A stretch of DNA of 64,000 nt from positions 434,001 to 498,000 of the forward strand of contig LDJB01000002.1 of assembly GCA_001028815.1 (NCBI GenBank), in the 5' to 3' direction. The notes beneath the pieces are model-generated. The model did not search any database and was not told where the DNA came from. It was given only the letters and a program-made list of their open reading frames with translations. Every line of letters starts with the position of its first letter. The first letter of the stretch is position 1. Shown here in pieces: positions 52,998-55,211 of the stretch. Made by a program: the position numbers and the translations under genes. Source of the DNA: Peptococcaceae bacterium 1109. Lineage in GTDB: Bacteria; Bacillota; Limnochordia; Darwinibacteriales; Darwinibacteriaceae.

Positions 52998-54068
52998 TTA
53001 CCTCCTGTTCTTGACATACTTTTGGTGCTGCCTTACTCCACTTTTTCCACCGAACATCCTGTTCAGTTTGGCTAGTTCCCGCTCTCTGGCTTTCAACCCT
53101 GCATACAATGCCTCCCGCTGCAGCTTTATATAGCTCTCAAAGCGCTCTTCAGACAGGGTCCCGTCGGCGATGGCTGCACGCACAGCACAGCCAGGCTCCG
53201 AACCATGGGAACAGTCGCTAAACCGGCACAAGGCGGAGAGTTCTTCAACATCTTCAAAGGCCCTAGTTAAGTCAGCCGCATAGATCTGCAGCTCTCGCAT
53301 CCCAGGCGTGTCGATGACGATGCCGCCTCCTGGCAGAAGCAGTAATTGACGATGGGTTGTGGTGTGCCGGCCTTTGCCATCATCTTCCCGGATTGCCTGG
53401 GTGACAAGGACGTCCGTTCCCATTAACGTGTTAATGATGGTAGACTTGCCCACACCGGACGAGCCAACGAAGGCGATGGTCTTGCCGGGAGCAATGTAAG
53501 ACCTGATCTCGTCGATTCCTTCTCGGTGCATCGCTGAACATGTGATGACATCCACTCCAAGGCTTACTCCTGCAATTTCCCTGAGCTTGTGTGGCAGGTC
53601 CGTGCATAGATCGGACTTGGTCAAAACGATCACGGGTAGTGCCATACTATCCCAGACAATGCTCAGATAGCGTTCAAGCCGCCGGACGTTGAAGTCCTCA
53701 TTCAGAGACATGCAGATAAAGACAGTATCGATATTAGCCGCGATAAGCTGTCCCGTGCTTTTAGTCCCTGCCATCTGCCGCATGAGCACGCTCTTGCGGG
53801 GAAGAAGGTGGTGTATGATGGCATGGCCCGTTCTGCCGTCCAAGCGGTCGATCATCACCCAGTCCCCGACTGTGGGGAATGAGGTTTCATCGTCGGCCCA
53901 GTGGGCGAACTTGCCCGAGACTCTAGCCTCAATCTCGCCGCGTGGGCAGATTACTTTGTACAGTTCCCGGTGCTGCTCTGAAACCCTGGCAGGGAATAGC
54001 CCTTCGTATTTTTCTGCCTCTTGGGCAAAGTCATTTCCATAACCAAAATCTTGCAGATTAACGTTCAA
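52998..54068 (-). CDS. rsgA: RsgA-type circularly permuted ribosome-associated GTPase
   Basis: The 356-residue protein has an N-terminal OB-like domain (FPARVSEQHRELYKVIC ... VGDWVMID), then a circularly permuted GTPase in the order G4 (LTKSDL), G1 (GSSGVGKST), G3 (DTPGM). The C-terminal zinc finger is CRFSDCSHGSEPGC. RsgA binds the 30S subunit and helps its late maturation. The start TTG 54068 has AAAGGAT 10 nt upstream. The N-terminus MNVNLQDFGYGND is of the second, accessory RsgA type rather than the standard yloQ form. It is preceded by an unusual leader with a peptide, a long stem and a terminator, so its expression is probably set by attenuation. Confidence 0.9.
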   Translation of the reverse strand: MNVNLQDFGYGNDFAQEAEKYEGLFPARVSEQHRELYKVICPRGEIEARVSGKFAHWADDETSFPTVGDWVMIDRLDGRTGHAIIHHLLPRKSVLMRQMAGTKSTGQLIAANIDTVFICMSLNEDFNVRRLERYLSIVWDSMALPVIVLTKSDLCTDLPHKLREIAGVSLGVDVITCSAMHREGIDEIRSYIAPGKTIAFVGSSGVGKSTIINTLMGTDVLVTQAIREDDGKGRHTTTHRQLLLLPGGGIVIDTPGMRELQIYAADLTRAFEDVEELSALCRFSDCSHGSEPGCAVRAAIADGTLSEERFESYIKLQREALYAGLKARERELAKLNRMFGGKSGVRQHQKYVKNRR

Positions 54069-54116
54069 TGCGTTCAGATCCTTTCGCTGAGTATGGTGTT
54101 TTTGTAAGGCCCGCGA

Positions 54117-54145
54117 AAGCAAAAAGCGCAGCTGCCCGCTGCGCT
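54117..54145 (-). terminator. Terminator inside the rsgA 5' leader (attenuator)
   Basis: AGCGCAGC (54145-54138) pairs with GCTGCGCT (54132-54125) on the minus strand, followed by TTTT and GCTTT. It lies between the leader promoter and the rsgA start, so transcription of rsgA must read through it. Confidence 0.75.
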
Positions 54146-54165
54146 GAGAGACATGCAAAAGAACA

Positions 54166-54224
54166 TGCTTGTTTGAAGCACCTCTCCGTCGTCTCGCAAG
54201 GCTTTTGGGCACACGAAACAAGCA
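54166..54224 (-). promoter_or_regulatory. Leader stem of the rsgA 5' region
   Basis: TGCTTGTTT (54224-54216) pairs perfectly with AAACAAGCA (54174-54166) around a 41-nt loop that contains further self-complementary parts. It directly precedes the terminator hairpin. Confidence 0.6.
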
Positions 54225-54260
54225 GGCACGATACCCGCTTCTGTGACACTAAGCTAAGCC

Positions 54261-54278
54261 CTAGCGATCGACCGACAT
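54261..54278 (-). CDS. Leader peptide MSVDR upstream of rsgA
   Basis: ATG TCG GTC GAT CGC TAG (54278-54261) is preceded by GAGGTG with 5-nt spacing, so a ribosome can translate this 5-residue peptide about 20 nt after the expected transcript start. Ribosome position here could decide the downstream fold. Confidence 0.5.
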   Translation of the reverse strand: MSVDR

Positions 54279-54304
54279 CCGCACACCTCACTCTTCTAGA
54301 ACGC

Positions 54305-54333
54305 AGTTTACCCCTTTGTGGGATTATTGTCAA
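54305..54333 (-). promoter_or_regulatory. Promoter of the rsgA leader
   Basis: TTGACA (54333-54328) and TAAACT (54310-54305) on the minus strand, 17 bp apart. Confidence 0.75.
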
Positions 54334-54404: not shown

Positions 54405-54812
54405 TTAGGCGAAATCTGAGAGCGCTTCTAGCAGCTCAATGAGACTCCGAAAGCCCGTTGGCAGATCATCGAGTACCATACCACAAGCACCTGACCAATC
54501 AAAGGCTACGGCATTTCCCCGTGTCAGGCGGAAGGAAAACTCCCGGGGGTGAGGCGTCCATACTTGGCACTCACTTTTCCATTGATCGAGCCGCTCCTTG
54601 ATAAGTGGGCTCTCGAAAAAGTCAAGCAGCTGATCGGCTATGTCATGGTACTCCTCGTTGAGGTCTACCCACTCTGTCCACTCGCTGTGTTGATACTTAG
54701 AGATGCGATAACCTCCCGGGTACTCCGCGATTGCCAGGCCCCAGTATGAATCAGCTCCGTAACCAATGCCGAAGGACTCGTACTTCCCTGTGCGAAATTC
54801 TAGTGTTCTCAT
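54405..54812 (-). CDS. Hypothetical cytoplasmic protein, 135 residues
   Basis: The protein reads MRTLEFRTGKYESFGIGYGADSYWGLAIAEYPGGYRISKYQHSEWTEWVDLN and ends with an Asp/Leu-rich helix. It is acidic and rich in aromatic residues, without signal peptide or known motif. ATG 54812 is well supported by AAAGGAG 8 nt upstream. The composition recalls SMI1/KNR4- or immunity-type small proteins but no toxin is adjacent. Function unknown. Confidence 0.6.
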   Translation of the reverse strand: MRTLEFRTGKYESFGIGYGADSYWGLAIAEYPGGYRISKYQHSEWTEWVDLNEEYHDIADQLLDFFESPLIKERLDQWKSECQVWTPHPREFSFRLTRGNAVAFDWSGACGMVLDDLPTGFRSLIELLEALSDFA

Positions 54813-54866
54813 AGCGATCACTCCTTTGACCAAACGGTTACCTTGATCGGTCCGTAAAAGGGAAGG

Positions 54867-55211
54867 TCATTCCCTGGCCGTCCAGTACTCACGCTCATCC
54901 TCGATGATAACTCGTCGAGCTCTGTTGTTTTGATCAAAAGCGTCCAGGTACTCCTCGATCTTGCTCGCATCAGAGTCATCGGACATTACAGCAAGCATTT
55001 CTCGGGCTTCATCATCAGTGAGGTCGATCCGGAAGGTGAAGTAGTTCACCCCGTAGCTGACTGTAGCCTCCATCGAGACAAAGAGATGGTAGGTATTGCA
55101 CTGGCGGCAGTATCTCACCTCGTAGTACTTCTCATCGCCAGTAATATGAGTGCCAGTAAAACGACGAACTGCTTCCATCTCTCCATGCTCAGGTACTCTG
55201 CATTTATACAT
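54867..55211 (-). CDS. Hypothetical protein with a CxxC motif, 114 residues
   Basis: The protein begins MYKCRVPEHGEMEAVRRFTGTHITGDEKYYEVRYCRQCNTYHLFVSMEAT. It has one Cys-x-x-Cys and an additional Cys/His near the N-terminus, and an acidic C-terminus (ALDDSDASKIEEYL-like). The RBS GGAGGTG is strong. The short, cysteine-containing start resembles a zinc ribbon, but the pattern is incomplete. It lies just upstream of the similarly sized hypothetical gene on the same strand. Confidence 0.6.
   Translation of the reverse strand: MYKCRVPEHGEMEAVRRFTGTHITGDEKYYEVRYCRQCNTYHLFVSMEATVSYGVNYFTFRIDLTDDEAREMLAVMSDDSDASKIEEYLDAFDQNNRARRVIIEDEREYWTARE

Follow-up and report, generated by a model that had tools for sequence, protein, structure and literature searches.

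The accessory rsgA gene (rsgA2) carried by the window, i.e. the whole stretch of 64,000 nucleotides analysed here from Peptococcaceae bacterium 1109, appears to be controlled by a ribosome-sensing transcription attenuator of the anti-antiterminator/antiterminator/terminator kind, complemented by a hairpin over the SD of the gene, a reading to which a probability of about 0.78 is given. The parts of this leader and their mutual exclusivity, as predicted structures, are demonstrated by sequence together with conservation; we infer that the leader ORF is translated and that stalling on it would be the trigger, RsgA2 itself being presumably a factor aiding ribosomes under translation stress. The window leader would add rsgA2 to the genes under a known kind of attenuator. 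An earlier, sequence-only reading of this DNA had proposed that an accessory paralogue of RsgA is controlled by a leader peptide and a terminator, and such an attenuator is well supported by conservation, covariation and antiterminator-terminator competition. The accompanying statement that no such control of rsgA had been described stands within the open full texts searched, in which attenuation of rsgA was not found described.

Regarding the gene, the rsgA2 CDS (52998-54068, minus strand) begins with a TTG codon behind the SD GAAAGGA (54085-54079) and encodes a full RsgA-family GTPase according to both Pfam (RsgA_GTPase, E 2e-53) and NCBIfam. Its orthologues begin at the matching position; a start at another TTG (54221), which would extend the ORF through the leader, was ruled out by in-frame stops just upstream in two orthologues (L012 and L015). 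Invariant alignment columns comprise the permuted G motifs (TKxD before GSSGVGKS, HTTTH and DTPG) as well as the zinc-site residues C/C/H/C. A housekeeping rsgA is present elsewhere in the genome, from whose relatives the RsgA2 proteins split off as a clade of their own with 100/100 support. Within the family of the host (Darwinibacteriaceae), an RsgA match was found in 23 of 23 genomes, the best one being the housekeeping form in each, and 11 of the 23 passed the threshold of the paralogue search. At 18 of 21 loci the housekeeping gene lies at most 60 nt from the upstream ORF, so close behind it, inside an operon, that there is no room for a leader, and the covariance model R1 presented below found no leader at 23 housekeeping rsgA loci. 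Upstream of the rsgA2 leader, two ORFs on the minus strand (54405-54833 and 54867-55211) are without Pfam or NCBIfam match.

All parts of the leader are likewise on the minus strand. The putative promoter, TTGACA-17-TAAACT (54305-54333), was recovered by motif scan exactly where the sequence-only reading had placed it, and of 12 related rsgA leaders, eight have the consensus TTGACA with 17-nt spacing 55-60 nt 5' of where the ORF starts, while the other four have weaker or unclear promoter matches. The five-codon ORF for MSVDR with its own ribosome-binding site, also proposed earlier, was confirmed in the sequence: the leader-ORF SD GTGAGGTGTG (54282-54291), including GAGGTG and falling in near-invariant alignment columns, precedes the ORF ATG TCG GTC GAT CGC TAG (54261-54278), which is made of five codons and a stop. 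P1 (54188-54272), the anti-antiterminator, is formed by the ORF arm (54272-54256) and an anti-ORF arm (54204-54188), and encloses the hairpin P2 (AAGCGGG/CCTGCTT, 54220-54240), identified by covariation. The antiterminator hairpin (54133-54211) pairs TGCCCAAAAGCCTT (from 54211) with AGCGCAGCGGGCA (54145-54133), the latter corresponding to the 5' arm and loop of the terminator; its apex is P3 (54146-54187), a hairpin obtained by folding, which contains TTCTTT (54163-54158), a match to the NusG pause motif TTNTTT. Motifs of this type can also be read in some relatives, and RNA polymerase may pause at P3. The intrinsic terminator, AGCGCAGC-GGGCA-GCTGCGCT-TTTTTGCTTT (54116-54145), was located by scan and by pairing across leaders, and its core, AGCGCAGC-GGGCA-GCTGCGCT-TTTTT (54145-54121), stands before the TTG start at 54068 as had been claimed. 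Finally, the hairpin H4 (CTTTCGC/GCGAAAG, 54081-54119), deduced from pairing across leaders, covers part of the rsgA2 SD.

The ORF and the terminator are kept in orthologues, but the 9-bp leader stem listed by the sequence-only reading (54224-54216 with 54174-54166, i.e. TGCTTGTTT with AAACAAGCA) is complementary in the window only, AAACAAGCA being missing from 15 of 15 related leaders and the 5' strand being the 3' arm of a conserved hairpin. In its place, the functional elements are the ORF/anti-ORF stem and the antiterminator. Taken in isolation, the window has promoter, terminator and fold statistics near chance (1 promoter found vs. 1.1 expected, 2 terminators vs. 1.2, and single-sequence fold z of -1.35 and -1.74), so that the case rests on comparison with relatives; curated Rfam models, such as T-box and riboswitch, gave no match at the window leader. 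Homologous leaders fold with z of -6.5 and -6.8, and it is conservation that raises the predicted leader above chance.

The window-type leader is kept in orthologues of G001, DURH01000020, Oscillibacter valericigenes, Megasphaera paucivorans and Companilactobacillus insicii. The covariance model R1, built from six leaders including that of the window, added L112, L124 and L125, three full rsgA leaders of unrelated Bacillota, with E-values in unrelated genomes down to 1e-32 to 1e-39, bringing the full rsgA leaders with kept structure to nine, distributed over Clostridia, Negativicutes and Lactobacillales. In four genomes (L114, L115, L116 and L120; leader at 1501-1671, peptide MSVIL), R1 also found the leader, there placed 5' of a gene for a class I SAM methyltransferase of 241 residues, by virtue of which the window-type leader behaves as a portable regulatory cassette; the common leader flags this methyltransferase as a candidate translation-stress or resistance gene. 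An SD-led ORF with a Met-Ser start and an in-frame stop after four to five codons is present in all 16 leaders, partial ones included, where ATGTC is invariant and codons 3-5 are variable (D, V, L, I, S; R, L, Q, G). Counting against the attenuator, the leader is decayed in one orthologue (L014) and none was recognised at another (L015). At L125 (G513), an intact window-type leader stands 5' of an rsgA2 shortened by an internal loss to a frame of 195 residues. Three further R1 matches (L117-L119) are near threshold and look like noise, a pattern match in a viral contig (L126) falls within a coding region and was taken as chance, and blastn of the leader against plasmids gave no match.

The covariation across leaders of rsgA paralogues that the sequence-only reading had named as a check was found. 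Over the nine rsgA leaders, the pairing of P1, P2, terminator, H4 and antiterminator loop reaches 90.3% vs. 34-46% in slid controls, and 12 pairs are changed on both sides vs. 5.7 in shuffles, none of 500 shuffles being as high, in counts that overstate independence as the leader relatives share ancestry. For 11 of the 14 leaders examined, no more than 2 of 300 shuffles matched the duplex between the ORF and its downstream arm (P1), which includes compensatory changes. P2 (96.8% of cells paired) is the top covarying helix in an unbiased scan, in which the terminator (98.5%) and TGCCC x GGGCA, third with two covarying pairs, complete the best three. A pseudoknot reading of this last helix, which joins the strand after P2 to the terminator loop, was dropped, the helix being seen as the outer part of the antiterminator helix, itself paired at 89.8%. 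H4 (86.8% of cells paired) displays compensatory changes and is also present in the methyltransferase leaders.

P1 and the antiterminator both use a CCUU stretch and are thus mutually exclusive; the exclusive stems that folding had been expected to reveal were indeed found, with the antiterminator competing with both P1 and the terminator. In full-length folds with the ORF masked, no antiterminator was obtained and the terminator won in most leaders, so the switch must be kinetic: the antiterminator appears only when the RNA is cut before the 3' arm of the terminator, as when emerging from RNA polymerase. In such truncated folds, URCCCAAAUGCCUU is released once a ribosome occupies the ORF, and it then pairs around P3 with the 5' arm and loop of the terminator. 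Expected antiterminator pairs rise from 1.0 in the free window leader to 8.1 with a ribosome at codon 3, and from 0 to 9.3 in Oscillibacter, 9.6 in Megasphaera and 10.3 in G513, the equivalent pairing in the methyltransferase leaders being ACUGCCUUACAGAUU x AAUUUGUAGCGCAGU. Of 13 leaders, 11 have almost no antiterminator pairs in the free nascent RNA, and the same 11 gain 5-10 such pairs with a ribosome on the ORF, ten of them at codon 3 and one (G378) only when it is placed at the stop codon. In the other two (G001 and MT406), the antiterminator is predicted even without a ribosome, which counts against the switch. A further point against it is that shuffling only the antiterminator strand reached as many pairs in 35 and 55 of 100 shuffles in two leaders, the figure for the other 11 being 0-16 of 100.

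With an empty ORF, or once a fast ribosome is gone, P1 would form and hide the antiterminator strand, the terminator would form and rsgA2 would be off. If a drug or another early elongation block instead detained a ribosome at any point of the ORF, P1 would stay open, whereupon the freed strand could pair with the emerging 5' arm and loop of the terminator, and the resulting antiterminator would let RNA polymerase read through into rsgA2. From the exclusion between P1 and antiterminator, a held ribosome should thus mean read-through and an empty leader termination. The sequence-only reading had the gene switched on when ribosomes stall or initiate poorly on the leader; the former would fit the architecture, but not the latter, an empty leader being predicted to favour termination. 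A peptide of five residues is too short for classical macrolide sensing, which counts against the explanation, and by analogy with vmlR the window leader would be expected to answer drugs stalling ribosomes at or soon after initiation, not macrolides.

Beyond the window type, leaders of several types, both transcriptional and translational, precede RsgA2 genes. An SD-led leader ORF was found at 51 of 64 RsgA2 loci from many lineages vs. 18 of 76 control genes, and an ORF together with a terminator or an anti-SD at 34 of 64 vs. 4 of 76 (p about 1e-10), the classification rules having been fixed when part of the leaders had already been read. An SD-like stretch, GGGGAGG or close to it, is encoded within the ORF itself in Sporomusa, Clostridium, Syntrophomonas, Listeria and others, where this stretch and the rsgA SD are alternative partners of a single anti-SD. 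In the Listeria monocytogenes record (L122, 2842-2935), rsgA2 adjoins pnp and the leader ORF is MAIVKMENLIINTGVFYL; ATGCTCCC can pair with the end of this ORF or, partly, with the rsgA SD, making it a translational attenuator candidate. A close relative of the window (L026, DURQ01000064, 2385-2515) has kept the ORF (MSEIG) and lost the terminator, its anti-ORF abutting the rsgA SD, so that control seems to have shifted here from transcription to translation. A distinct family of longer leaders 5' of rsgA2 (L016-L020), with peptides such as MSAIYMVISS and MINHVTLVVLT, exhibits a GGCACAG/CTGTGCC hairpin and a CCTTTCG complementary to the leader SD. In a further family from Lysinibacillus and Metasolibacillus (L079, L083, L090 and L094), a terminator follows the ORF and the conserved peptides contain F-x-F-T-R-L (e.g. 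MMNKSIFSELQFGLFHFTRL...).

Since a leader ORF, an antiterminator and a terminator are also the classical layout of amino-acid attenuators of the trp/his style, the ORF could in principle sense the charging of a specific tRNA. Such a role is nonetheless highly improbable considering that the ORF has four to five codons, of which the variable ones change freely with the anti-ORF, that the constant part is limited to Met-Ser with no run of a regulatory codon, and that the controlled gene is a ribosome factor. Feedback from the supply of 30S subunits, where the leader would report initiating ribosomes and tune rsgA2 to the maturation of 30S subunits, not to drugs or stalling, agrees with the RsgA family membership of the gene, with the ability of the leader-ORF SD itself to pair downstream in several leaders, and with translational leaders of other RsgA2 genes, whose expression an empty leader would leave on; still, an empty window-type leader is predicted to favour P1 and with it termination, the opposite of what a shortage would call for, and this scheme is considered unlikely. 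As for the near-chance single-sequence statistics of terminator and promoter, they would suit a constitutive short transcript, the terminator ending a small RNA and rsgA2 being expressed by fixed read-through or from another promoter. Against this quite unlikely arrangement stand the covarying mutually exclusive helices with the ORF, and the same leader moved 5' of a methyltransferase.

The ribosome-sensing attenuator, as the preferred reading, suggests that rsgA2 helps cells survive blocked protein synthesis, because similar switches precede the spare rsgA across many Gram-positives. Stall-sensing leader ORFs are a good guide to genes countering translation inhibitors, hflXr having been discovered in this way, and here they mark a whole accessory RsgA clade across Bacillota, which leads to the testable proposal of RsgA2 as a 30S or ribosome factor induced by drugs or stalling. 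The broader view, that RsgA2 is to RsgA as HflXr to HflX, namely an undescribed and widespread family of ribosome GTPases induced by translation stress, possibly intrinsic antibiotic-tolerance or target-protection factors, under stall-sensing leaders of several unrelated designs in many Gram-positive lineages, is given even odds.

Among known systems, housekeeping RsgA (YjeQ, CpgA/YloQ) shares with RsgA2 the circularly permuted GTPase and the zinc-site residues, but forms a separate clade and is encoded in an operon without leader. Translational attenuators of the erm/cat kind combine a leader ORF, stalling and alternative pairing; they resemble the leaders of other RsgA2 genes (Sporomusa, Clostridium and Listeria), whereas the window leader would act mainly through its terminator. 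In its layout, compared by the order of the parts, the window leader matches vmlR of B. subtilis, where a very short ORF in the first stem acts as anti-antiterminator, a TTNTTT pause-type hairpin is followed by a terminator and an SD-covering hairpin (SL-1 to SL-4), and the antiterminator bears a second hairpin at its apex (PMC9226507). The vmlR ORF has three codons, is sequence-tolerant and lies in a bulge, lincomycin and retapamulin acting through it, whereas that of the window has five codons and is base-paired, with P2 as an extra hairpin; besides, vmlR controls an ABC-F ATPase, and a drug response is shown for vmlR only (PMC9226507). In Listeria monocytogenes, hflXr (lmo0762)/rli80 follows the paralogue logic proposed here for rsgA2, a transcription attenuator with a leader ORF acting on the accessory copy of a ribosome GTPase while the housekeeping copy is not involved, but the hflXr leader peptide has 14 residues with an RLR macrolide motif and the GTPase is an HflX, acting in ribosome splitting (PMC6310831).
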